Below, piece after piece: positions 1-12,546 of a DNA stretch of 64,000 bases. A model generated the notes under the pieces. The model had not been told where the DNA came from, did not search any database, and saw only the letters and a list, made by a program, of their open reading frames with translations. The translations under genes were made by a program, and so were the position numbers. Numbering within the stretch: position 1 is the stretch's first letter; each line of letters starts with the position of its first letter. This DNA comes from Clostridium sp. DL-VIII (GTDB taxonomy: Bacteria > Bacillota > Clostridia > Clostridiales > Clostridiaceae). The DNA is taken from NCBI RefSeq assembly GCF_000230835.1, contig NZ_CM001240.1, forward strand, positions 591,001-655,000. The letters run 5' to 3'.

Positions 1-1676
1 AATTCTATAAATTTATCGATTATATGTTGGGTTCATCAGAAAAAGTAAACAAGCAATACTGGTATAAGGATACTCTAAAAGAAGCTACGATGGAAATTTT
101 TTATGATAATATTAGCTATGTTCTAACTAGAACTTTAGATGCAGAAACGAATTATTTATACTATAAAGATGAAGAACAAGGAGAGTCTATAGGAAGTAGG
201 GAATATAAAGATAAATTAAATTCTATTTTTACTAAAGAAGAATTATTTCTAAAGGATATTAGGGAATTTACAGATGAAAACCTAACATATAGATCATTTA
301 CAATGTTTAATTTTTTAGGGGAAAAGAGACAAGGGGTTTTAAATGATTTTTTAGATAAATGTAGTGATATAAGATATTCTGTAAAGCTTAATCCTATATT
401 GAATTTTATATTTAATAAAAATTTATCACTGATATTTAAACTAAAAAAAGAACTTGAGGTTCTAGAAAATGAAGTGAAATCAATTGAAAGAACTGCAAGT
501 AGATTTGATTTTATATGCAATAAAGTTAATTTAAACTTACATAAATTAAATATACTTCTACCATACAACGGTAGAAATTCTGATGAAATCAAGGAACAAA
601 TTGAAAGCATAAAGTCAATGGAGAGTAAAATAAATAAGAATAGTACTAAAACTATTGCAGAGTTAGAAGCTATATTCAATAATTTAGATGAGCAGATTAA
701 AATATATGAAAATAGAATCTTAGACTCTAAAAGAATGAACATAGAAGGAGAAAATAGAAAAATACTTTTAGAGAGATTAAATTTAATTTTGCAAAATACT
801 AATGAGTTACAGTATCTAATAGAACCTGTAACTAATTTAGTTCAAGATTTAGAGAGTAGCATTTCTTTTAATAACTATATAATTAATGATACTGCAGTTC
901 AAGAAATGAGAAAACAAAGGGAAAATTTAAAGAAAGAAATTTTTAATAATAATTATAGATTTAAAAGATTTAATATAGATGAAAAAATTAAAGCAATATC
1001 TATTGTAGAAGATTATTTAAGTGAAAACATAAGCTATAATGAGGATGAACTTAAAGAGAAAAGAAAAAGAATAAGAGCAATTAAAGAAGAAATAAAAATA
1101 TTGCAAAATGCAGATGATGTTGAAAAGATAGAAATGATTTCAGAGAGTATTACTAATCTATATAAATCAGCATATGAAGTTTCAGAATTAGTTAAGCATG
1201 ATATTGATATTGAAGGATTCAAGATACAATATATTAAAAAGGGAAATATTCTTCAACCTATGATAACAGTTAATGAAGATGAAAGAAATGAAGCAGAAAT
1301 TGTAATCGAAGGTGGTAAAAAGTCTTCAGAAAAGTACTATACAGGGAGTATGGCAAGGCATACACTTATTCAGTTATCAGGGTATTTAAGTTTTTTGGAA
1401 TTATTAATTAAAGAAAATAAATATCCTATTGTACCTATTTTGGTTATTGATCATATTTCTAAACCATTTGACTTGATTAATAGAAAAGCAATAGGAACAG
1501 TTTTAGAGAAATTTTATGAAAGAATAGATAGAGAAAATATTCAAATATTTATGTTTGATGATGAAAATAATGATGATTTATTAGTAACTAATGCCACAGT
1601 AGATAACTTGATTTCTGAAAGTAAAAGTGGTTTCAATCCTTTCTATTATGAAATTAAAGATGATAATAATAAATGA
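1..1676 (+). CDS. SMC/Rad50-like coiled-coil ATPase, C-terminal part (5' truncated by window edge)
   Basis: The reading frame is open back to the first bases, so the ATG at 24 is probably internal and the gene starts outside the window. The visible 550 residues are rich in charged heptads (about 130-390), as in an SMC/Rad50-type coiled coil. A C-terminal ATPase lobe follows: a signature-like stretch YTGSMARHTLIQLSGY (about 445-460) and a Walker B-like PILVIDHISKPFD. The residue after the Walker B aspartate is His, where a catalytic Glu is usual. The N-terminal Walker A lobe would lie upstream. Known relatives include DNA-repair ATPases and ATPases of defence systems (ABC-3C type). Its place upstream of tns genes suggests transposon cargo, which is inference. 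An intrinsic terminator follows. Confidence 0.6.
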   Translation, partial: FYKFIDYMLGSSEKVNKQYWYKDTLKEATMEIFYDNISYVLTRTLDAETNYLYYKDEEQGESIGSREYKDKLNSIFTKEELFLKDIREFTDENLTYRSFTMFNFLGEKRQGVLNDFLDKCSDIRYSVKLNPILNFIFNKNLSLIFKLKKELEVLENEVKSIERTASRFDFICNKVNLNLHKLNILLPYNGRNSDEIKEQIESIKSMESKINKNSTKTIAELEAIFNNLDEQIKIYENRILDSKRMNIEGENRKILLERLNLILQNTNELQYLIEPVTNLVQDLESSISFNNYIINDTAVQEMRKQRENLKKEIFNNNYRFKRFNIDEKIKAISIVEDYLSENISYNEDELKEKRKRIRAIKEEIKILQNADDVEKIEMISESITNLYKSAYEVSELVKHDIDIEGFKIQYIKKGNILQPMITVNEDERNEAEIVIEGGKKSSEKYYTGSMARHTLIQLSGYLSFLELLIKENKYPIVPILVIDHISKPFDLINRKAIGTVLEKFYERIDRENIQIFMFDDENNDDLLVTNATVDNLISESKSGFNPFYYEIKDDNNK

Positions 1677-1716
1677 GAAAGGATATATATTTCTTATAAT
1701 AATAGATTAATATAAG

Positions 1717-1759
1717 AAAAAGGAATGCCTAGCGCAATAAGCTTTTGGTATTCTTTTTT
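1717..1759 (+). terminator. Intrinsic terminator after the coiled-coil ATPase gene
   Basis: Arms AAAAAGGAATGCC (1717-1729) and GGTATTCTTTTTT (1747-1759) pair with two G-T wobbles. An inner AGC/GCT pair extends the stem and the right arm is T-rich. It lies 41 bases past the stop codon. Confidence 0.7.
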
Positions 1760-1832
1760 CTATTTTAAGTAAGGTAAAGATGATAAAGTTGTATAAGAAT
1801 AATTTGTGATTCTACTTTTTATAGAAAAAGAG

Positions 1833-1861
1833 TGTGTATAAAGTTACTAAATTTATACACA
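1833..1861. promoter_or_regulatory. 29-bp palindrome, copy 1
   Basis: TGTGTATAAA and TTTATACACA are perfect 10-bp inverted arms separated by 9 bases. The site is 106 bases upstream of the small cysteine-rich gene. A second copy with the same 29-bp geometry is at 2668-2696. It looks like an operator or other protein-binding site; the binding protein is unknown. Confidence 0.6.
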
Positions 1862-1967
1862 TAACATGTTAAACAGTTTATTATAACAAAGTCCAATTCA
1901 TTTATCAGTTAACACAAAATTTTAAAATTTCAAGTTATACTATGTAAAAATAAAGGAGTTGGTTTGT

Positions 1968-2336
1968 ATGGAACAAAAGTGCGGCACATGCAATGGTTGT
2001 AAAACTAGTATAATTGAACAGATGCAACATTTGGTGATGTTAGGAATGAGTGATGCAAATATACTGTATCAAGATTATTGTGAAGAGCAGTATGAAGAAA
2101 TAAAATATTACTTAGAAATGTACAGGAATATGGCAGAAACTAATTTAAAAGATGATCTAAGTGGGGGATATGATTACTGTAACAATTGTAAAAGTAAAGT
2201 AAGAGTAGAAAAATTTAAAGAATATCTTAATAGAATGGTTAAGGTAATTAATAGCGATCGATATTATTATGTAGAAAAACTGCAAAGAATTTATTTTTTA
2301 CAAGATGATTATTTTGAAGATTGTGGTGGTTTTTAA
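1968..2336 (+). CDS. Small cysteine-rich protein of unknown function (possible transposon cargo)
   Basis: I do not recognise this 122-residue protein. The ATG at 1968 is preferred because AAAGGAG (1952-1958) sits nine bases before it; a TTG at 1959 is the only other candidate. The N-terminus has three closely spaced cysteines (CGTCNGC), and a second CNNC pair occurs near residue 74, so a zinc- or metal-binding fold is likely. The middle is helical and rich in Glu and Tyr, and the protein ends DCGGF. It stands alone between two terminator-like hairpins and behind palindrome copy 1. Its position between the ATPase and the tns genes suggests cargo or an accessory factor. Confidence 0.6.
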   Translation: MEQKCGTCNGCKTSIIEQMQHLVMLGMSDANILYQDYCEEQYEEIKYYLEMYRNMAETNLKDDLSGGYDYCNNCKSKVRVEKFKEYLNRMVKVINSDRYYYVEKLQRIYFLQDDYFEDCGGF

Positions 2337-2667
2337 AAATATCATGAAATTATAAGAATAAGATGGAATTGAGATAATTTTAATTAGTATTTTTAACAAT
2401 CATCTTATTTCATCCTATTTTTTAATAAATGGATTGCTTGTGATGGATTAATACAATATAAAGATAATAATAATAAACTTATTATTATGAAATCAGTAGT
2501 AGTGTTTTTAGATATAAATTTGGAGTATAAATATTATTGGCATTTTAACAAACAAGATGAAACATTTAAATTTAAATTGGATTGATGAAAGTAAACATTT
2601 TTAATTTTAAATTCACAAAACTAATAAGTTATGTTATAGAATTATTAAAAAATTTTAAAAAAAAGAA
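2337..2667. other. AT-rich gap between the cysteine-rich gene and palindrome copy 2
   Basis: No convincing gene is present. AATAAGATG (about 2358-2370) and CATCTTATT (about 2399-2409) form a hairpin that may terminate the upstream gene. A short AATAATAA/TTATTATT hairpin lies near 2470-2490. The rest is AT-rich sequence with stops in all frames. Confidence 0.5.
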
Positions 2668-2696
2668 TGTGTATAAATTTAATAAAAATATACACA
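2668..2696. promoter_or_regulatory. 29-bp palindrome, copy 2
   Basis: TGTGTATAAA at 2668-2677 faces AATATACACA at 2687-2696. The total length is the same 29 bp as copy 1, and two bases of the right arm are changed. A poly-A/GA run precedes it, as with copy 1. It lies upstream of the RNase H-tns gene cluster, which suggests shared control of both small transcription units. Confidence 0.6.
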
Positions 2697-2772
2697 AAAA
2701 TAATGTATATTTTATAAGAAACAGGTTAATAATTTAATTATAAAATACAAGTAAATATTTGATTTTAAACAT

Positions 2773-2815
2773 AAAAAAAATTTCATTACTCTTAAAGGGC
2801 AGTGAAATTTTTTTT
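2773..2815. terminator. Bidirectional terminator or attenuator hairpin before the tns cluster
   Basis: AAAAAAAATTTCA (2773-2785) and TGAAATTTTTTTT (2803-2815) are perfect 13-bp arms around a 17-base loop. The U-run is built into the stem on both strands. It lies between palindrome copy 2 and the first gene of the cluster, so it may insulate the cluster or act as an attenuator. Confidence 0.6.
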
Positions 2816-2917
2816 ATGGGACAAGCAGTTTTATGAATAAAATTTGATTTTATGTCTAAAATGACGACAGAAAGGAGAAATACAAGAATTTAGAAACAGA
2901 TTTATTAACTAGATAAA

Positions 2918-3496
2918 TTGAAAGGAGGGATTAATATAGTACAAATATATGTGGATGGCGGAGTGAAGGACAATATTATGTATATAGGGGTAATTGACGT
3001 ATATGGAACTACCGGAATAAGGTATTCTAAAAAGTTGGAGGCAGGTTACAGCCATACTGCGGAAGAATTGGCGTTATTTGATGCACTAATGATAGTTAGT
3101 AAAATGGAGTTAAATGATAAGATTATCATTTACTCAGATCAAAGAACATTAGTTGATATGATAAAGAATGAACACGTTACTCGAAGTATTCAAGATAAAT
3201 ATCCAAAGATAACTGAAATACTAAATTTAGTGAGTAATAGTAGCAATATATCGGTAGAATGGATCAAAAGCACTAAGAATGCTGCACATACTTTGGTGAG
3301 CAGTGCGTATTTAGGTATATTTTATAATAACGTTGATTTACAAGACAATAAAAACCAATTTATTGAACGACAGAATATTATTAAAAAATTTAAATTTGAA
3401 CTTCAAAAAAGAGATTTAATAATAAAAGATTTAATAAAAACTATAAATAGGCTAAATAAGTTAACTATAGATGAGAAATTTGAAGCTATAGACTAA
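2918..3496 (+). CDS. RNase H-like protein upstream of tnsA
   Basis: The protein (about 190 residues) has the RNase HI layout: YVDGG near the start (first Asp), AEELALFDAL (Glu, about residue 49) and IYSDQRTLVDM (second Asp). The late motif reads KNAAHTLVSSA, where RNase HI usually has the fourth acidic residue, so the site may be altered. A basic, helical extension of about 60 residues follows. Start choice is unclear: TTG at 2918 has no SD site upstream, whereas a strong AAAGGAGGG (2921-2929) sits just inside and would serve an ATA codon at 2936. tnsA follows after 49 bases in the same direction, suggesting a shared transcript. Nuclease activity on RNA-DNA hybrids is inferred from the fold only. 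Confidence 0.7.
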   Translation: MKGGINIVQIYVDGGVKDNIMYIGVIDVYGTTGIRYSKKLEAGYSHTAEELALFDALMIVSKMELNDKIIIYSDQRTLVDMIKNEHVTRSIQDKYPKITEILNLVSNSSNISVEWIKSTKNAAHTLVSSAYLGIFYNNVDLQDNKNQFIERQNIIKKFKFELQKRDLIIKDLIKTINRLNKLTIDEKFEAID

Positions 3497-3545
3497 TAGA
3501 GGAAAATGGAAATTACATTAATAATTTTATATAGAAAGGGATGAA

Positions 3546-4313
3546 TTGATTGTGTCAGATAATGGAGAGTCGTTTGGTTCATGGGAAAGATATGACTCTA
3601 TATTTAAACCTAAAAGAAAAGTAAATAATAAATCTAGTAATGCATTACCACACATAATAGGAACTTTCTATAGCAATAAAATGAATAAAAGCATAGAATA
3701 CGAATCTATAAATGAATTTATACTATATTCGATTTTAGAATTGGATAAAGGAACTCTTAGGTATTATGTTCAACCAATGGAAATTGAGATGAAATATACT
3801 GATAAAGATGGCATCGAGAAAAGATGGATTCATGTTCCTGATGTATTGGTTTTTCGAGATAACATGAAGCCAGTATTATATCAAGTTAAAGATCCTAAAA
3901 GTAAGATTACAGATAAAATTGAGATTATAAATAAAAGATGTAATAAATATGCTGAAAAGAATGAGTGGAATTATAATGTTATTTATCCTAAATTATTACC
4001 AACTGAATTAATAAGAAATATTAGATTTCTTGTTGGATTTTTAAAGCGAAGGAAGGAGTATAATGATTTAATTCCTAATGTAATGGCGAGATTAGAGTAT
4101 ATGAGAAATACAAACATAAATGAATTACTAAACAGTTTCTCAGATGAAATAAATACATTGAGTTTGCTTCCTACAATATATCATTTAATAGCCAATGGAA
4201 GTATTTTTACAAATATTGAGATGCCAATATCAGAATTCAGTAATATAACTCTTCATAGAGAAATAGACTATTTTAGTTATCTAAAGGAAGTGACCAGTAC
4301 TGAGAATAAATAA
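3546..4313 (+). CDS. tnsA: TnsA-like heteromeric transposase endonuclease subunit
   Basis: TnsA makes the 5'-strand cuts at Tn7-type ends, working with TnsB. The protein (255 residues) shows the restriction-endonuclease-like triad: Glu in YESINEF (residues 53/57), Asp in HVPDVLVF (D99) and the QVK motif (Q113, K115), matching the E-D-QxK pattern of TnsA. A C-terminal helical part follows, as in the two-domain family. The TTG at 3546 lies five to six bases after AAAGGG; a GTG at 3552 is possible. tnsB starts 28 bases after the stop, so the two are probably co-transcribed. Presence of TnsA predicts cut-and-paste rather than replicative movement. Confidence 0.85.
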   Translation: MIVSDNGESFGSWERYDSIFKPKRKVNNKSSNALPHIIGTFYSNKMNKSIEYESINEFILYSILELDKGTLRYYVQPMEIEMKYTDKDGIEKRWIHVPDVLVFRDNMKPVLYQVKDPKSKITDKIEIINKRCNKYAEKNEWNYNVIYPKLLPTELIRNIRFLVGFLKRRKEYNDLIPNVMARLEYMRNTNINELLNSFSDEINTLSLLPTIYHLIANGSIFTNIEMPISEFSNITLHREIDYFSYLKEVTSTENK

Positions 4314-4341
4314 ACTAAAAATTAATTCAGAAATTATATAT

Positions 4342-6366
4342 ATGGGAAAAAGATATGTAGTAGTATCAATAGAACCTCCTAATGTTTTTATTAGAAGGAT
4401 AGATTCAGATGGAGTTTCAATAATGATAGAATTTTCAGAACTAGTTTCAAATGCATTAATAAATGATGAGAATTCTCCACAATATATAAAACCAATTTCT
4501 GATGGTAATGAAGATATATCATTCAATTTATTATCAGTTCATAAGAAGGACATAGCATATAAAAAGATGAAAATAATTAGACCTTTAATTATTTTCAAGG
4601 CTATAAAAGAAGGTGATATCAGAGCGAATTATGAATTTAAAGAATACTATAGTGAACTGACATATGAAAATGAAGAATTAACTGAATTAAATCAGGAAGA
4701 ACTTATTAATAGAGTGGCTAAGAAAGAAAATATTTCAGTAAGAACAATAAAGAGATATTTATCTGCATATAGAAAAGCTGAAAATATAAAAGAAAAAAGT
4801 GGTGTAGAAGGATTAGTACCCAAAAGCGGAAGTGGATATTTAAGTAGAAAGGATAATAAAACTCTAAATATATATAATCCTAGAAATCCAAACATTATTT
4901 TGGATAGTATTAATGTCAGAATAGATAATATTTATATTCCTATTATACAGGACGTAATTTCAAAAGAATATCTTACAACAAGGCAGGCAGGGAAAAATGA
5001 AATATACGATTCTATATGCGTAAAATGCCTTATGAAAAACATTCCTCCACCTAAAATGATTACTATATATAAATTACTGGATAGAGTTAATCCACAAGTA
5101 AAATCAAGACTTAGAAATTCTAAAGAAGCCGCAGCGATATATGATGATATTGAAAGAGGATTTTCTAATGAAGATTCTATGTATCCGTTACATGTTATAG
5201 AGATTGATCATACTGAACTTAATATGGATGTAATGGATAGTAAAACAGGATATGTAAATGGAAGACCATGGATAACATTAGGGATTGATGTATATAGTAG
5301 ATGTATTTGGTGTATGTATATATCATTTGAACCCCCTTCAGCAAATAGAGTAAGAAAGGCACTAGAGAATGGAATTTTTATCAAAGATAATAAATATGAT
5401 ACACAAAATAAATGGGACGTATTTGGTATACCTAATACTATATTTTTAGATAATGGTCCTGATTTTAAAAGTGCTGAGGTAAAAAGAATGATAAATGATA
5501 CTCTAAAATCTCATGTGAAATATAGACCAGTAAGAACTCCTCGATATGGAGGAGTAATTGAACGATACTTTGGTACTATAAATGAAGAATTTATACACAG
5601 ACTTGAGGGAACAAGAAAAAGCAATTTTATAAAACTTGGAGAATATGAACCTGAAAAAATGGCAGCATTGACATTGGATGATATTAAGGAACTCTTAACA
5701 ATTTATATAACAGATGTTTATCATTGTTCTGAACATAAAGGACTCCCTGTATATGAAAATATACCGTTAGTCAGATATATTGAAGGGATTAAAAAAGCAG
5801 GATATCCGGAATTTATTAGTAAAAGTGATGAAGAATTTTATAAAGTAGAATTAATGGCTACTGATATGAAACCATATACGAGAGATGGTGTAAGATTAGG
5901 AAACGTAATTTATAAGTCTCCGGAATTTTCACAATTCATAGGAGGACGGGATAGGAAGTATAGAATTAAATATGATGATGATGATATTTCTAAGATATAT
6001 ATATTAAACCCAAAGTTAAACAAATATATAGAACTACGAGCGGCAATACCATCATATGAATCATTGGCTAATGTTAATAGGTATACGTATAAAAAGATGC
6101 TTGAACTTATTAAAGAGGAAGGAATTACAAAGAGAAATGAGCTAATTTCAACAGATGTTGTTATAAAAGCTAAAGCTAAGTTAAAACAAATTATTTCTGA
6201 AAAATATAAAGTAAATAGAAGTATAAGAAAGCAATCACAAAGAACAAATTTTGACGTAAAAATAGATGTTAGTGATGCTCAAACAAATACGAAGGAAAAT
6301 AATATGAAACTTGAAGATATAATTTCGCAAGCAAAAAAATTTGAAGAGAGAAGGAATCGAAAATAG
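4342..6366 (+). CDS. tnsB: TnsB-like DDE transposase
   Basis: TnsB binds the transposon ends and joins 3' ends to the target. The 674-residue protein has a helix-turn-helix near 122-145 and an integrase-core RNase H fold with the catalytic triad D289 (IEIDHT), D370 (FLDNGPDF) and E407 (GGVIERYFGTIN). The 36-residue D-to-E spacing fits the family. A Mu-transposase-type C-terminal domain (RDGVRLGNVIYKSPEF) and a charged tail, expected to contact TnsC, follow. Its stop codon directly abuts the tnsC start. The SD before the ATG at 4342 is weak, so expression may depend on coupling to tnsA. No frame disruption is seen. Confidence 0.9.
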   Translation: MGKRYVVVSIEPPNVFIRRIDSDGVSIMIEFSELVSNALINDENSPQYIKPISDGNEDISFNLLSVHKKDIAYKKMKIIRPLIIFKAIKEGDIRANYEFKEYYSELTYENEELTELNQEELINRVAKKENISVRTIKRYLSAYRKAENIKEKSGVEGLVPKSGSGYLSRKDNKTLNIYNPRNPNIILDSINVRIDNIYIPIIQDVISKEYLTTRQAGKNEIYDSICVKCLMKNIPPPKMITIYKLLDRVNPQVKSRLRNSKEAAAIYDDIERGFSNEDSMYPLHVIEIDHTELNMDVMDSKTGYVNGRPWITLGIDVYSRCIWCMYISFEPPSANRVRKALENGIFIKDNKYDTQNKWDVFGIPNTIFLDNGPDFKSAEVKRMINDTLKSHVKYRPVRTPRYGGVIERYFGTINEEFIHRLEGTRKSNFIKLGEYEPEKMAALTLDDIKELLTIYITDVYHCSEHKGLPVYENIPLVRYIEGIKKAGYPEFISKSDEEFYKVELMATDMKPYTRDGVRLGNVIYKSPEFSQFIGGRDRKYRIKYDDDDISKIYILNPKLNKYIELRAAIPSYESLANVNRYTYKKMLELIKEEGITKRNELISTDVVIKAKAKLKQIISEKYKVNRSIRKQSQRTNFDVKIDVSDAQTNTKENNMKLEDIISQAKKFEERRNRK

Positions 6367-7287
6367 ATGGCTAATTTATTGGAATCACAAAAATTTGCAG
6401 AAAGAGTAGCTAATATTTATATAAAGTATCCGAGAATACAAAGAATATATGATGTATTGTCATCGATGAGATGTTTGGGAACATTTAATAATAGAAATGA
6501 AAGTCAATCCAATTTATTTATAATTGGTCAATCTGGTGTTGGAAAGACTAGAATGATAAAAAGATATGCTGAAATGAATAAAGGATTTGTAAAAATAGAA
6601 GATGGGATAGAATATGATATTAAACCAGTGGTTTATTTAGAACTTCCTGATCCATTCACTCTTTTGGAATTATATCAATCCATAATCAAAGCACTTGGTG
6701 CACCTATAATTATGTATAGACCGTCCATAGGTGATGCCAAGAGACACGCATTTACTTTGCTTGAAAAGCAGCAAGTTGAAATGTTAATTTTTGATGAGAT
6801 GGATTATATATTAAGTAGTAGATATATTAAGCCACAAGAAGCAATGGAGGCTATAAAACATATTGGAAATGTAGCAAGTACCTCTCTTGTATGTGTGGGA
6901 ACACCTCAAGTAGACGAGCTAAGAAAACTGAATTTTCAATATTTTAGGAGGTTCCCTAAAATAGAATTAGAAAGATTTAATGAATTAAACGATGAGTTTT
7001 GCACGTTTTTAAATAATATAGAAAAACAAATTAATCCAATAGAAGAAATCGGACTAGGAGATATGGAAACTAATTTACCACAAGTTTTTTTTGCGATGAG
7101 TAAAGGTGTTGTTTCCATAATTACTAGAACTATTCAAGAAGCATATAGGTTATTAGGGGTATTTAATGAAGATTTTGATGATATTTCAAAAGCAAAACTT
7201 AGTATTGATTTTATATATGCAGCTTACAAGAACATTGTAGGTGATATTAATATGGAAGAGTTCGAAAGAGCTATTTACTTAAAGTAA
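6367..7287 (+). CDS. tnsC: TnsC-like AAA+ ATPase, transposition regulator
   Basis: TnsC bridges the target selector (TniQ/TnsD) and the TnsAB transposase by forming ATP-dependent filaments on DNA. The 306-residue protein has Walker A GQSGVGKT (54-61), Walker B IFDEMD (141-146), a sensor-1 strand VCVGTP (175-180) and an arginine-rich FRRFPKIELERF segment, as in the TniB/TnsC family. The ATG immediately follows the tnsB stop (TAGATG), so translation is very likely coupled. The length is short compared with Tn7 TnsC (about 555 residues) and close to the compact TniB/CAST type. This suggests reduced tails for TnsA/TnsD contacts. Confidence 0.9.
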   Translation: MANLLESQKFAERVANIYIKYPRIQRIYDVLSSMRCLGTFNNRNESQSNLFIIGQSGVGKTRMIKRYAEMNKGFVKIEDGIEYDIKPVVYLELPDPFTLLELYQSIIKALGAPIIMYRPSIGDAKRHAFTLLEKQQVEMLIFDEMDYILSSRYIKPQEAMEAIKHIGNVASTSLVCVGTPQVDELRKLNFQYFRRFPKIELERFNELNDEFCTFLNNIEKQINPIEEIGLGDMETNLPQVFFAMSKGVVSIITRTIQEAYRLLGVFNEDFDDISKAKLSIDFIYAAYKNIVGDINMEEFERAIYLK

Positions 7288-7302
7288 TACAGGAGGATTA
7301 TT

Positions 7303-9087
7303 TTGAAGATGGAAGACAAATTGACTGTTAGATTTAAACCATTCAAAGATGAACTGCTTACTAGTTACTTGGTAAGGCTTTCGAAAAATAATGGGGTAGA
7401 TTTATTACGCTTATTAAATAGTATAAAAGAAAAAAATGACGACTATATACAATTAAGTGAATTAAGTGTTATTGATAAAGTTCCGTTTAAGCATATAAAT
7501 TATGATTCACTTGAAAAGCTATTAGGATTTAGAATAGATTTTTTATTGACTAATACTTTTTATAATATTATTGAAAAGTTTGGAGATAGCAGTGAAGTTG
7601 AAAGAGCCAGATTTATTTCAGGAGTTATACGAAAGGATTTCTATTATTGTCCTAAATGTCTAGAAGAAAAGATGTACTATAGATTAATGTGGAAAATTGA
7701 AGGGATAACAAATTGTGCTAAACATAAATGTAAACTTCTAAATAAATGCCCACATTGTAATCATAAGATTAGGTATGAGGAAATAGCTTGTTTGGGAATA
7801 TGTAGTAATTGTGGAGGAAAACTTTCTGGAGATATCGAAAAGGATACAGAAAATGTTAACTATTCCTTATATGAAACTTATTTGTATGAGAGTTGGAATA
7901 AGTTGATGTATAGTAACTATAACAAAATAAAATCACAGGAAATAGCCTATAAAATTTTATACATTTTAAATAAGAAAAGAAGTATTTTTGATAAAGATTT
8001 ACTTAATAATTTAAACAAAGAAAAATATTTTTTACAAATGATTTTACAATATGCAAGAGGAACAACTATAAATAAAAAAACATTACATATATCAAATATT
8101 ATTAATATATTATTTGAAAATAAAATTAGCATTGACGATTTTTTGAATTTGCAAGTACCTAAAGAATTTGTAGCTTCAGTTAAAGAGAAAAAACAAAATA
8201 AATTAGAGAGAACTAGTTGTATGGCACCATGGTGCAAAAATTATAAAGTTAGCGGAGGATTAGTTAAAACTAATACGACTTATAGAAAATTAGTAAATAA
8301 CAGTGCTTTATTATATTATATGTACTGTCCAGAGTGTGGTTGTGAATATGCGTATGATGAAAATGGATATTTAGTTGAAAGAACATCTTTTATTGATGGA
8401 TTTAATCGCTTAAATAATACATGGAATAACAACATATCATTAGAAAATCTTGCGTATATAAATAGCATGACAGAGGATAAGATAAAGAGAGTTTTAGCAT
8501 ATTTTAATACTAGAGGCATGTATTTGAAAGATGAAAAGACAATTGTTCTAGAAGAAAAAATGATAAATTTATTTATTAAAGAGATAGAAATGGGAAGTAA
8601 TTTAAATAAAATAAAAAAATTAAAATGCTGGAGAGGTTATAGAGAATTTTTATTATATAGATTTCATAAAGAAGTAATGCTAGAACTTAATATGAAAAAG
8701 GTTGTACGTAATAAAATAGTTAATACAGAAAATAAAAGACAAAAGGTTATTAATATATTAGAAGAATTATTAAAAGGTGATATACCAATTACCTTAAATA
8801 AAGTTTGTAGTAAATTAAATATTTATCCTGAAACAATTAGGTATTGGAAATGCAATAAGTTAATTGCTGATTACAAAATTAAGCAAAAGGATAATTATCT
8901 ACAAAGAGATAGAATAGTTGTAAAAGAAAAAATAAGACTATTTATTGGAGACAATAAAGATAATGTTATTAGAACAAAAGATTTATATAAATATATAGGA
9001 ATACAAAGAAATGTATTGTGGAGAAAGTATCCTGAAATTACAGCATATATAACTAGTGAGATTAGTAGACATAACAAATTGATGTAG
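7303..9087 (+). CDS. TniQ/TnsD-family target-selection protein 1
   Basis: TniQ/TnsD proteins choose the insertion site. The N-terminal TniQ domain has its zinc ligands at C116-C119, C138-H141, C149-C152 and C167-C170 (CPKC, CAKH, CPHC, CSNC). A second Cys cluster, CMAPWC followed by CPECG about 35 residues later, and a helical C-terminal part with HTH-like repeats mark the long TnsD class (594 residues) that recognises a fixed DNA site. AGGAGG (7291-7296) is six bases before TTG 7303 and twelve before ATG 7309, so TTG is favoured. It follows tnsC by 15 bases. The target site is not identifiable here. Confidence 0.88.
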   Translation: MKMEDKLTVRFKPFKDELLTSYLVRLSKNNGVDLLRLLNSIKEKNDDYIQLSELSVIDKVPFKHINYDSLEKLLGFRIDFLLTNTFYNIIEKFGDSSEVERARFISGVIRKDFYYCPKCLEEKMYYRLMWKIEGITNCAKHKCKLLNKCPHCNHKIRYEEIACLGICSNCGGKLSGDIEKDTENVNYSLYETYLYESWNKLMYSNYNKIKSQEIAYKILYILNKKRSIFDKDLLNNLNKEKYFLQMILQYARGTTINKKTLHISNIINILFENKISIDDFLNLQVPKEFVASVKEKKQNKLERTSCMAPWCKNYKVSGGLVKTNTTYRKLVNNSALLYYMYCPECGCEYAYDENGYLVERTSFIDGFNRLNNTWNNNISLENLAYINSMTEDKIKRVLAYFNTRGMYLKDEKTIVLEEKMINLFIKEIEMGSNLNKIKKLKCWRGYREFLLYRFHKEVMLELNMKKVVRNKIVNTENKRQKVINILEELLKGDIPITLNKVCSKLNIYPETIRYWKCNKLIADYKIKQKDNYLQRDRIVVKEKIRLFIGDNKDNVIRTKDLYKYIGIQRNVLWRKYPEITAYITSEISRHNKLM

Positions 9088-9148
9088 GAATAACATTTTT
9101 TGCTGATGCATAGTTGGAGAAACCATTTCATTTGAACGGAGGAAGTTT

Positions 9149-11188
9149 ATGGATATAAGGTTACCAATAAGACTAAGTATTGTTGAAGGGGAATCATTTA
9201 GTGGATATATTATAAGATCTGCAAGGGCAATGGGTGTTGATTGCAAGGAATTTTTTAAATATATTATTTATAATTGTAACATACACTATAAATTTAAAGA
9301 TAATATAATAAATGTAGCTTACTCTCAAATAGCCAAGGGTATTGATGTTTTTCCATTTGAGATATTAAAAGAAAACAATATATGTTCTATATTTAATAAA
9401 TCAAAAGAAGAAATTGAAAATGCTACTTTTAAGAATGTATTTGATGTGTTAAATGTAAAGTTGGCTTTAGGCAAAGAACATATTGGAAAGGAGTTAGTTA
9501 AAGATGTAAGGAGATTCTGTCCTCTATGCTTAAAAGAGAATGGCATTTATAAATTAATGTGGCAAATTAAGGATATAAAGATTTGTGACATACATAATAT
9601 AAAATTGGTTAGTTATTGTGGTGTCTGTAATTCTAAGCAAAGATACTTTTCATCATATTTAGGAAATTACATATGCAGTAATTGTCATTCTTTGTTGTGG
9701 GAAAAAGTAAATAGAGATGATTTAAATATTAATAAATTAAATGAACAAATATTAGCATATAATAATTGGAAGTTTTTACTTAAATATAAAAACAAACTAG
9801 TAAAGATAATTCCACATTATAATTTTAATCAATCTCTGGCAATAACAATGTTATATATTGCACAAAATCAAGAGAATACATTTCAAATAGAAAATATAAA
9901 ACAATTTCATGAAAAAACAATTTGTAATATTGTCAAATTTATAAATAATAATGAAATTGGAGAGAAGGTCACTTTAAATGGTGTGAAACGAATAGCAAAT
10001 GATAAAAATATCTTGCTAAAGTCTTTACCTAATATTGAAGTTCCTATATCATATATTCAATCTTTAGTTGAACAAAGGAAGAAGGCTATGGAATTAATGT
10101 GTTTATCACCGTGGTGTGATTTCTTTGGTAAAAACGATAAAATTGAAATACTAGGAAAATGTAATTCAAAAAGTAATGAGTTTGTGAAAAAATTTGTTTG
10201 TACTGAATGTAATATGCGATTTGGGTATAACTTCCGAAAGAATATGTGTGAACCATTTAATAAAACGTTCTTTAATAATATACCTAAAATTAAAGAAATG
10301 ATTTTGAAAGGCAAAATTCAAGGAGAGATTGTTGATACTTTAGGAATAAGTGCATATTTGTATACAAAAATTTTAGCGTATTTACTTTTAAATAATTTAG
10401 TAAATAGTAATGTAGAAACTAATAGTTATATGATTATACCAATAGATATAAAAGATAGATTTAATGTCTTATTTGACAAAAAATGTTTAACGGATAAAAA
10501 GGCTAAGAAAATTTTTGGGTGGAGTTATTTTCAATTCCATTACTATTATTGGTTACCTGAGATACAAAATTTCCTGATCAATAAAGAAAAATATGAGGGA
10601 CTAAGAAGAAGTCAATTTAGACCCCAAAAAAGGAACTGGAAGAAAGTGTTGCTGATAGCTATATATTATTTTTTGAAAAGAGACATAGATATATGCTATA
10701 AAAATACTAATAAATATTTTCAAATTTCACGAGAAATGTTGCTTAGACATAAGTTGGGTGATATTTTCGAAACATCAATGAGATTCCAAGCGAATAAGAA
10801 AAGAATAGAATATAATCTTTACATAATTAAAAAAGTAGCTAATTATTTAGATAAGTTTAAGTTTGAAAACGTACTTCTAAAAGATTTATTTGCTAAAACA
10901 AAAATAAATCGATATCAGCTAACAACAAATTATCCGGATTTAGAAAAATATGTAGTAAGAAAGGTAAAAATACATAATTTAAAAGTTAGAGAACAAGAAA
11001 TAGAACGTTATAAAGTGGAAATAGAAAAGATTTATTTAAAAAGTATAGAAAATGGTGAGTTAGAAACAATTAGAAGTATATCTTTAAAATTAGGGAAAGA
11101 ATATAAATTTATTTCTAGATGCCCTGAATTGAATACTTTTACTAAAGAACTTTTGAAGCGTAATATTAATACGAAAAGTGACAACTAA
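9149..11188 (+). CDS. TniQ/TnsD-family target-selection protein 2
   Basis: This 679-residue protein has the same architecture as its neighbour: TniQ zinc ligands C124-C127, C146-H149, C157-C160 and C176-C179, then CLSPWC and CTEC, then a long helical C-terminus with HTH-like segments. The two proteins differ widely in sequence, so they are not a recent duplication. In known systems with two TniQ/TnsD proteins each may direct a different target (fixed site versus plasmid or guide-RNA route); no Cas genes are seen here. A good SD (GGAGGAAG) precedes the ATG. The last codons overlap the first GTGACAA repeat of the presumed transposon end. Confidence 0.87.
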   Translation: MDIRLPIRLSIVEGESFSGYIIRSARAMGVDCKEFFKYIIYNCNIHYKFKDNIINVAYSQIAKGIDVFPFEILKENNICSIFNKSKEEIENATFKNVFDVLNVKLALGKEHIGKELVKDVRRFCPLCLKENGIYKLMWQIKDIKICDIHNIKLVSYCGVCNSKQRYFSSYLGNYICSNCHSLLWEKVNRDDLNINKLNEQILAYNNWKFLLKYKNKLVKIIPHYNFNQSLAITMLYIAQNQENTFQIENIKQFHEKTICNIVKFINNNEIGEKVTLNGVKRIANDKNILLKSLPNIEVPISYIQSLVEQRKKAMELMCLSPWCDFFGKNDKIEILGKCNSKSNEFVKKFVCTECNMRFGYNFRKNMCEPFNKTFFNNIPKIKEMILKGKIQGEIVDTLGISAYLYTKILAYLLLNNLVNSNVETNSYMIIPIDIKDRFNVLFDKKCLTDKKAKKIFGWSYFQFHYYYWLPEIQNFLINKEKYEGLRRSQFRPQKRNWKKVLLIAIYYFLKRDIDICYKNTNKYFQISREMLLRHKLGDIFETSMRFQANKKRIEYNLYIIKKVANYLDKFKFENVLLKDLFAKTKINRYQLTTNYPDLEKYVVRKVKIHNLKVREQEIERYKVEIEKIYLKSIENGELETIRSISLKLGKEYKFISRCPELNTFTKELLKRNINTKSDN

Positions 11189-11282
11189 TATTATAATGAA
11201 AACGATTTGTGACAAGAGATAGTATATTTTGTGTCAAATGAATATTACAATTCTTATTTTTTTACAACAGTTTTAGTGACAA
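11178..11282. repeat. Presumed TnsB-binding repeats at the tniQ-side transposon end
   Basis: GTGACAA occurs at 11178-11184, 11209-11215 and 11276-11282, with a variant GTGTCAA at 11231-11237. All are in the same orientation and followed by AT-rich spacers. Short repeated TGACA-type boxes of this kind are the TnsB sites at ends of Tn7/CAST elements. The exact terminus (TGT...ACA) and target duplication cannot be fixed, because the partner end is not in the window. Confidence 0.5.
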
Positions 11283-11416
11283 CTGTAATTATAATTCACA
11301 AATTGTAGATTTAGAACAAAATTTGATCATTTGAAAAAAGTTTAATTAAAAATAATATGAGTGGTGATACTATACTTATATGTAGAGTATAGTATGAAAA
11401 AATAGTAGAATTATAT

Positions 11417-11523: not shown

Positions 11524-12546
11524 ATGCTAATAAATAAATTATACATTAAAAATTATAATGAATTTAATGATAATTTTCAACGTATATTACCATTAAATTT
11601 AGAAAACTTAATACCAGAAGATGATTCGGTCCATTTGCTAAGCCACATATTGGAGGAATTAGATTACAGAAAGTTGTATAAGGAGTGCTCTTCCGTTGGA
11701 AGAGAACCGGCAGTGCAACCTAAAATTATGTTTAAAATAATATCTTATGCTTATTCTCAAAATATTTATTCAAGCAGTAAAATGGAAAAATTATTAAAAA
11801 GAGATATGAATTTCAGGTGGTTACTTCAAGGTTATAATAACCCGACCATGCTACAATTAGTAGATTTCGTAAAGACTATCTTTCAAATGAGGTAATTGAA
11901 GATTTATTTTATCAAAAAGTGAATTATTTAGCCATGCAAAATGAAATATTATTTAAAAATGTATTTAATGATGGTACTAAAATCAAGGCGAATGCCAATC
12001 ACTATACCTTTGTTTGGAAAAAAGTTATTTTAAAAAATGAGGAGAAGATGTTTGATAATATTCTTGTTTTCTTACAAATCACTATCTTGAAGAGTTAAAA
12101 AAATTTACTGTTCAAAAAGAAATAGTTACTCTAAAACTGATCCAGATGCAACTTTCATACATATGAAAGTTGATTATATGAGAAATGGTCAATTAAAATC
12201 TGCATATAATGTTCAAAGTGTAGTTGATAGTGAATATATGACAGGTGTCGGAATATTTGATGATAGAAATGATATAGCAACATTAATACCTATGCTTAAC
12301 AATATGGAAGAAAAAATTAGTCGCAAATATCTTAATGTAATTGCAGATTCTGGTTATGAAAGTGAAGAAAATTATATGTATCTAGAATCAAATAAACAAA
12401 TTCCTTATATAAAGCCACAAACTTATGAAAAGTGGAAAAAAAGAAGTTTTAAAAATGATATAAGTAAACGCAAAAATATAAAATATGATGCTGAATCAGA
12501 TTTCTATATTTGTCATAATAATAGAAAATTCGCAAGTGGGTACTAG
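11524..12546 (+). pseudogene. IS1182-family transposase, decayed
   Basis: The N-terminal part (11524-11895) matches the DUF772-type head of IS1182 transposases (EDDSVHLLSHILEELDY, QPKIMFKIISYAYSQN). One base is lost near 11841: the following DNA in the next frame reads PDHATISRFRKDYLSNEVIEDL, as the family requires. The DGTKIKANAN and TFVWKK motifs remain, then an internal deletion removes the middle. The last piece, from about 12130, contains TDPDATFIHMKVDYMRNGQLK and DSGYESEENY. The protein ends early at 12546, so part of the DDE core and the right end are missing. Transposition is not expected. Confidence 0.85.

Follow-up and report, generated by a model that had tools for sequence, protein, structure and literature searches.

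A Tn7-like transposon with two long tniQ genes, inserted behind glmS, occupies the left part of a 64,000-nucleotide window of Clostridium sp. DL-VIII (bases 591001-655000 of the complete, single-contig genome of 6,477,357 bp, contig NZ_CM001240.1; a further 160 kb upstream was also fetched). From sequence comparison we consider it likely, with a probability of about 0.7, that in this complete and probably active Tn7-like element the first TniQ protein (TniQ1) is a homing TnsD and the second (TniQ2) another target selector.

Results

Ends and target site of the transposon

The transposon is 23,064 bp long (genome 579237-602300, window part 1-11300), a length that follows from matching inverted repeats and the 5-bp sequence AATTG at both ends. 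The ends are TGT/ACA inverted repeats, each with three TnsB-type sites. At the glmS-distal end the terminal repeat, read from the sequence, is TGTGAATTATAATTA (window 11286-11300, minus strand); its partner at the glmS-side end is TGTGAGTTATAATTA (genome 579237-579251), and the two termini mirror each other with one mismatch in 15. The TnsB-type repeats of the distal end lie at 11178-11282 on the minus strand, with exact GTGACAA copies at 11178, 11209 and 11276 and a degenerate GTGTCAA at about 11231, and three TGTCA-type sites follow TGTGAGTTATAATTA at the glmS side. GTGACAA is found nine times in 224 kb, and the three distal copies form its sole close cluster, which bears out the use of this repeat as an end marker in the initial annotation of the window. 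The AATTG duplication is perfect and flanks both ends, at 11301-11305 and at genome 579232-579236, i.e. 22-26 bp behind the stop of glmS (genome 579210; the gene was identified by family). The element itself starts 26 bp behind glmS.

The initial annotation had placed the other end outside the window and proposed a leftward extension, with a matching end to be sought within 100 kb. This end was located behind glmS, 11,764 bp (11.8 kb) before the first base of the window, and carries the TGT inverted repeat and the 5-bp duplication. It escaped a scan for clusters of exact TTGTCAC, the sites there being degenerate; it was recognised on reading behind glmS and then checked. Since the TnsA, TnsB, TnsC and TniQ genes, the ends and the 5-bp duplication are all present, the description as an intact clostridial Tn7-like transposon stands, and we regard the element as a complete cut-and-paste transposon that is probably active. 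The range first given for it, 2918-11282, does contain the five tns and tniQ genes, but its first open reading frame (ORF; 2918-3496) is not a tns gene and the right boundary is at 11300.

In three relatives (G030, G003 and G013) the glmS 3' ends are 91-92% identical and no such element end stands behind the gene; because the right flank of the present element resembles an older element, these relatives give at most candidate empty sites, none of them exact to the base. A glmS ribozyme (RF00234) lies upstream of the occupied glmS (L008:6116-6263).

The tns and tniQ genes

All five reading frames are open and in order on the plus strand. The tnsA gene (3546-4313) encodes a 255-residue endonuclease subunit with the Pfam TnsA N and C domains and the motifs EYESI (51), PDVLVF (98) and LYQVK (111). 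The product of tnsB (4342-6366) is a DDE transposase of 674 residues with Pfam Mu-transpos_C and the motifs IDH, LDNG and IER, whose residues D289, D370 and E407 are invariant in a 17-sequence alignment, while tnsC (6367-7287) codes for an I-F3-like AAA+ regulator of 306 residues with a Pfam TniB match (E 2.3e-30), a Walker A motif GQSGVGKT (54) and a Walker B motif. The residues of these TnsA, TnsB and TnsC motifs are taken in their established roles. The tniQ1 (7303-9087) and tniQ2 (9149-11188) genes encode proteins of 594 and 679 residues, both with Pfam TniQ matches (E 8e-17 and 5e-15, respectively); TniQ1 is the proposed glmS homing selector. These frames, matches and motifs agree with the earlier account of an intact tnsA-tnsB-tnsC-tniQ-tniQ set with catalytic residues and with two long, divergent TniQ proteins of TnsD type.

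Among solved proteins, the nearest relatives of TnsB are the TnsB proteins of type I-F3 transposons associated with clustered regularly interspaced short palindromic repeats (CRISPR-associated transposons, CASTs). The best solved relative of TnsC is also from I-F3, VchTnsC of Tn6677 (E 1.5e-16, compared with 2e-4 for Tn7 TnsC), in keeping with the remark in the initial annotation that this short TnsC is nearer in size to CAST/TniB than to Tn7. The core of TniQ1 matches I-F3 TniQ, and its predicted model, with a mean local confidence score (predicted local distance difference test, pLDDT) of 84.6, matches TniQ (8fcu_P) and TnsD (8v32_J) in the PDB. TniQ2 gives a profile match to the same TnsD (E 2e-9) and carries the TniQ Cys/His motifs. 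In both proteins the C-terminal part has helix repeats, one more in TniQ2 (counted by eye), and there is a second Cys cluster; both are predicted to be of TnsD build, a TniQ core with a long C-terminal part.

In comparison with Clostridium sp. C2-6-12, the ratio of nonsynonymous to synonymous substitution rates (dN/dS) across the five genes is 0.14-0.31. That of tniQ2 is 0.31 (dN 0.012, dS 0.039) and those of the other four genes are 0.14-0.28, with dS values of 0.09-0.22 that lie above that of tniQ2. TniQ2 is intact and, judging from these values, under purifying selection, and its low dS suggests a recent exchange of tniQ2 between strains.

The initial annotation had seen no Cas genes. In line with this, no Cas gene was named among nine upstream cargo ORFs or the scanned window ORFs, and repeat scans gave no CRISPR-like array; a HEPN-type cargo protein has a weak PADLOC match to Csx1/Csm6 (E 0.0027) and is not an effector. 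According to PMC11406308, TnsE is almost universal in Tn7-like elements of the glmS site. The TnsE_C domain (PF18623, E<=0.001) was detected in none of 12 carrier genomes of the present family; among the controls, one of three Clostridium genomes with other Tn7 elements was positive, and none of 14 standard control genomes.

Distribution of the family and pairing of TniQ1 and TniQ2

The TnsB protein is 95% identical in Clostridium sp. C2-6-12, 53% in Brevibacillus centrosporus and 44% in Ureibacillus massiliensis. A protein search gave at least 221 TnsB relatives (7,996 best candidates scored); the names shown among the 120 matches listed are those of Bacillota genera. Genome-wide searches, on sets that overlap and include the centre genome, found TnsB in two of the 68 genomes of the genus at E 0 (five when weak matches are counted), in 4/206 genomes of the family and 2/398 of the phylum, in 6/398 genomes of the class of G402, and in 1/39 and 15/394 genomes of the families of G970 and G402, respectively. 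TniQ2 relatives are also present in C. butyricum and C. diolis (P0002, P0005).

We read the surroundings of 27 family loci, the present element included, which span Clostridium, Brevibacillus, Ureibacillus and probably also Alicyclobacillus and Paenibacillus. Both TniQ types were found in 23 of the 27, as judged with TniQ profiles built from these same proteins, in some cases 15-70 kb from tnsABC; in B. centrosporus the second TniQ lies 15 kb further on. As for the others, G484 is cut by a contig end, and the contig of G1243 ends about 2 kb past its only visible TniQ. G1300 lacks a TniQ, and its TnsA and TnsB are broken. In G1120 TnsB is truncated, and no TniQ was found in the 7 kb read beyond it, on a contig that continues for 8 kb more. 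One TniQ is split in 4 of the 23 loci, namely TniQ1 in G956 and G493 and TniQ2 in G1160 and the first G876 element. The gene order varies between tnsABC-TniQ1-TniQ2, tnsABC-TniQ2-TniQ1, TniQ1-tnsABC-TniQ2, and tnsABC at one end with the pair at the other. The last arrangement is seen in the G974 and G796 elements (some 79 and 50 kb or more, respectively), in which tnsABC stands at the glmS end, the TniQ pair at the far end and the cargo between them.

In a joint tree of 44 rows, with two outgroup TniQs, TniQ1 and TniQ2 are split with a support of 96/94 and in 200 of 200 bootstrap trees. This clean split makes one old duplication the simplest account, as far as sequences can tell. Very divergent TniQ1 proteins (branch 2.6) are found in G1316 and G1243.

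Attachment genes across the family

A host gene was readable on the tnsA side at 20 of the 27 loci. All 20 are attachment-type sites, with tnsABC directed away from the host gene in each. The gene is glmS at ten loci (G000, G032, G970, G796, G974, G956, G1313, G1052, G1311 and G484), an ABC-2 permease gene (natB in our shorthand) at five (G1301, G1300, G1191, G1160 and G1120) and a SpoU-type rRNA methylase gene (SpoU-family methylase, trmH) at three (G1159, G402 and G1211a). The two single sites are nrdJ (G1316) and a GNAT gene (G1243), where the ends were placed by eye; the element end provides the stop codon of the GNAT gene. For each kind of host gene, one copy was identified by family.

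The distance behind glmS is 21-28 bp (seven loci, scripted). G974 and G956, whose ends are not fixed, were scored as glmS loci because tnsA begins about 270 bp behind that gene. Matching 5-mers at both ends were found in G000, G970, G1313, G1052, G1311, G1301, G1159, G1300, G1191 and the first G876 element, and also in G032. Some of the chosen end pairs match at 12/16 terminal bases, a level reached by chance pairs; for weak pairs the place behind the gene and a TGTG(A/G)G start were decisive. The element of G032 (Clostridium sp. C2-6-12) is a separate insertion behind a glmS whose 3' end is only 68% identical, with the duplication TATAT and ends across two contigs, 24 bp behind glmS (by eye). 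G402 has two ends whose 5-mers do not match. At seven loci (G1086, G1290, G1211b, L021, G493 and two in G876) no host gene was readable, and a relaxed end search that dropped the duplication gave nothing usable in G1086, G493, the second G876 element and L021. Tandem arrays occur within the family, a right end being followed after about 10-50 bp by the next left end (L021:17118-17200 and G1086 near 7540).

TniQ1 follows the attachment site

Trees of the single genes were first built from 20 of the 27 loci, leaving out split or cut genes and G1311, which was added later. Scoring covered thirteen rows of known site, with glmS in seven and the permease and methylase genes in three each; nrdJ and GNAT, with one row apiece, were left unscored. 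The elements of each site form a single group in the TniQ1 tree, one change sufficing per site, in 90%, 100% and 100% of bootstrap trees for glmS, permease and methylase, with branch supports of 59/93, 93/97 and 100/99, respectively. When G1311, a glmS locus, was added, it was placed in the glmS group as expected, and the figures became 96, 100 and 100%. The TniQ2 tree (12 labelled rows) requires three changes for glmS, which is one group in 0% of the bootstraps, and two for methylase. In the TnsB tree the methylase-site elements do not come together in any bootstrap tree (0%), because G1211a falls among permease-site elements with a support of 100/100, and the glmS group is weak (38%, or 62% with G1311). 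The site labels need three changes in the TnsC tree.

G1211a, whose TnsB goes with permease-site elements, has a TniQ1 that goes with methylase-site elements, and it is located at the methylase gene. G796 and G1313, both at glmS, are 88.6% identical in TnsB and 91.9% in TnsC, compared with 51% in TniQ1 and 24% in TniQ2. Therefore, judged by the trees and this pair, the site is tracked most closely by TniQ1 among the four genes compared and is not tracked by TniQ2; this association is a correlation over few independent events. TniQ2 was also considered as the reader of glmS and was rejected, given its 24% identity in two elements at the same site.

Discussion

Proposed mechanism and role of TniQ2

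The steps carried out by TnsABC, and the duplication, are those established for Tn7. TnsB with TnsA would bind the TTGTCAC-type repeats at both ends and cut the element out, TnsC would connect the transposase to the target selector, and insertion would yield the 5-bp duplication. TniQ1 would act as a homing TnsD, recognising the 3' end of glmS, or in relatives that of another conserved gene, and would place the element just behind the gene with the tns genes outward. TniQ2 would select a second target, in the place of TnsE in Tn7 or of the Cas-bound TniQ in CASTs, so that the element would have a two-route life with a safe chromosomal home and a means of spread. The proposal of two targeting routes in the initial annotation is thus backed on the side of TniQ1, which follows the attachment site, and rests on inference for TniQ2. 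TniQ2 is the best candidate for the second route because it is intact and under selection, carries the TniQ and C-terminal motifs, and stands in a family with no TnsE match in 12 of 12 carriers searched. We infer that it is a second selector of the TniQ type with a different target, with less certainty than for the role of TniQ1.

Several observations weigh against this reading. No TniQ2 match was found in 72,556 plasmid records, a collection in which Bacillota plasmids may be thinly sampled, as they may be in the others searched. The best TnsB matches on plasmids are 25-26% identical among the 40 listed of 4,935; those in phages are 25-28% on five records, and those on viral contigs 27% and partial. 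No sure case of an insertion made by TniQ2 was seen on plasmids, phages, viral contigs or in the family loci. The predicted TniQ2 model has a pLDDT of 56.9 and is confident in the C-terminal helices only. In the TniQ2 tree the deep branches are long and poorly resolved, and two permease-site rows form a clade. Taken together, the three site labels fit the TnsB tree with two changes, the fewest possible, and plain inheritance with the methylase site as ancestral may fit that tree. Finally, two ends and a duplication are present in the first G876 element, no glmS end was found within the 140 kb read, and its TniQ1 is 67% identical to that of G974, a glmS locus, and lies inside the glmS clade. 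This element sits in an array of Tn7-like elements (L103-L106), near genes that we take to be nagB/nagA, and it may reflect a rearrangement of the array, a shift in specificity or insertion through another route. CRISPR-like repeats were seen just behind the right end of the glmS-type element of G876.

What TniQ2 selects can be read in several ways. It is possible, though we hold it tentatively and would not rely on it, that a Bacillota-wide family has replaced TnsE and CRISPR by a protein-only TniQ2 directed at mobile DNA (plasmids, phages or their replication), TniQ2 diversifying or being exchanged as a cassette and TniQ1 being re-tuned to different chromosomal genes. TniQ2 might instead serve as a further homing selector, directed at another chromosomal gene and used in hosts or under conditions with the first site absent or full, which we judge rather unlikely. 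The TniQ1 relatives use five genes, so TniQs of this family change site readily, some members of the genus already carry other Tn7-like elements behind glmS, and the first G876 element, with its glmS-type TniQ1 and no nearby glmS, would fit; however, apart from G876 no element was found off the site predicted by its TniQ1.

We find it unlikely that TniQ1 and TniQ2 form one complex at one attachment site, with TniQ2 stabilising TniQ1 or recruiting TnsC. The pair is indeed kept together in 23 of 27 loci and all 20 readable host genes are attachment-type sites. Nevertheless, the two glmS elements with TnsB 88.6% identical differ far more in TniQ2 than in TniQ1; TniQ2 has its own Cys/His motifs, second Cys cluster and helix repeats, as a separate DNA reader would; and TnsABC with TnsD of a type I-D CAST homes without the other TniQ, according to PMC10293859. 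That TniQ2 is a passenger or decaying duplicate without a role appears very improbable: it is split in G1160 and one G876 element, but TniQ1 is split equally often (G956 and G493), the dN/dS of TniQ2 is 0.31, and the gene is kept in 23 of 27 loci across several genera.

Comparison with known systems

Tn7 has the same tnsABC genes, TGT ends and 5-bp duplication, and likewise inserts about 25 bp behind glmS with its tns genes outward. The present element differs from it in giving no TnsE match, in its short TnsC, in TnsB and TnsC being nearer to I-F3 CASTs, in the second long TniQ, and in the cargo placed between the glmS-side end and tnsA. It shares with the I-F3 CASTs (Tn6677, PseCAST) the nearest solved TnsB and TnsC and a TniQ1 core that matches their TniQ; unlike them, it has a separate homing TnsD, and no Cas genes or array were found. 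The Tn7017 branch, as described in PMC10293859 and PMC11406308, is also I-F3-related, with two TniQ/TnsD proteins and mostly no Cas or Cascade; there, one TniQ serves Cas and one parE, whereas here both are long (594 and 679 residues).

In Faure et al. 2023 (PMC10293859), dual TniQ/TnsD loci number 998 of 3,953, some with two tnsD genes, and have arisen many times; the model proposed is duplication in situ followed by a change of function. The present family has such tandem TniQ/TnsD genes and fits this duplication model. It differs in that the second protein of those loci is usually substantially smaller, while here it is the larger, and in what looks like one old duplication shared across Bacillota with one copy linked to the attachment gene. 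Elements with two TniQ/TnsD genes have thus been described already, and what sets this family apart is two long proteins with an apparent split of roles. We did not meet the family and its attachment genes in the open literature searched; they may be described in subscription papers or supplements.

Tn7-like elements are a source of programmable insertion tools, and how their TniQ proteins switch targets is a standing question. Within this family, TniQ1 is tuned to different genes in elements whose transposases are related, and TniQ2 differs widely between elements that share a site and have almost the same transposase, so that the TniQ1 code and the TniQ2 target become directly testable with no Cas part. 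If true, a protein-only TniQ2 would add a third way in which Tn7-like elements meet the two-route problem.

Cargo and flanking DNA

About a dozen genes precede tnsA, among them CorA-like, HEPN-type, metallophosphoesterase, LmuB-like ATPase and RNase H-like genes and others without assignment, and the cargo is probably defence-like. The window opens within the LmuB-like ATPase gene (3' part at 1-1676, plus strand, start upstream of the window; PADLOC LmuB E 4.9e-17). A small Cys-rich ORF of 125 residues follows (1959-2336, plus strand; sub-cutoff Pfam match only), bracketed by a 47-nt repeat, 81% alike, at 1818-1864 and 2653-2699, each copy of which contains the palindrome TGTGTATAAA..TATACACA. 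Directly upstream of tnsA, the RNase H-like ORF (2918-3496, plus strand; Pfam RVT_3 E 8e-8) is a cargo or accessory gene, with an 84% identical copy in the same place in Clostridium sp. C2-6-12; it was not found beside tnsA in the compared B. centrosporus and U. massiliensis loci.

On the right, the flank resembles Tn7-like ends found behind glmS in the genus, being 89% identical over 38 nt to the glmS downstream sequence of G045 (E 9e-10, in a search set of 12 short AT-rich sequences). The segment 11301-11420 opens with the apparent end of an older, different Tn7-like element, with the present element at its tip, and the glmS site was probably occupied earlier by that element (tandem insertion). 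A pattern search of the window did not find its other end. Distant TnsB genes (23-28% identical) lie 2-13 kb behind glmS in G004, G010 and G045. In G023 (C1:2376087, L030) the glmS-side end of the present element stands behind glmS in a genome with no TnsB match, and would be a remnant or a cargo-only island.

Directly behind the element, at 11524-12546, a DDE transposase gene is broken, with its DUF772 and DDE_Tnp_1 parts on separate ORFs. The same genome has two more Tn7-like loci, L016 (genome about 6414542) and L017 (about 5856280), with shorter TniQ proteins of about 429 and 380 residues and TnsB proteins 23-24% identical to the present one.

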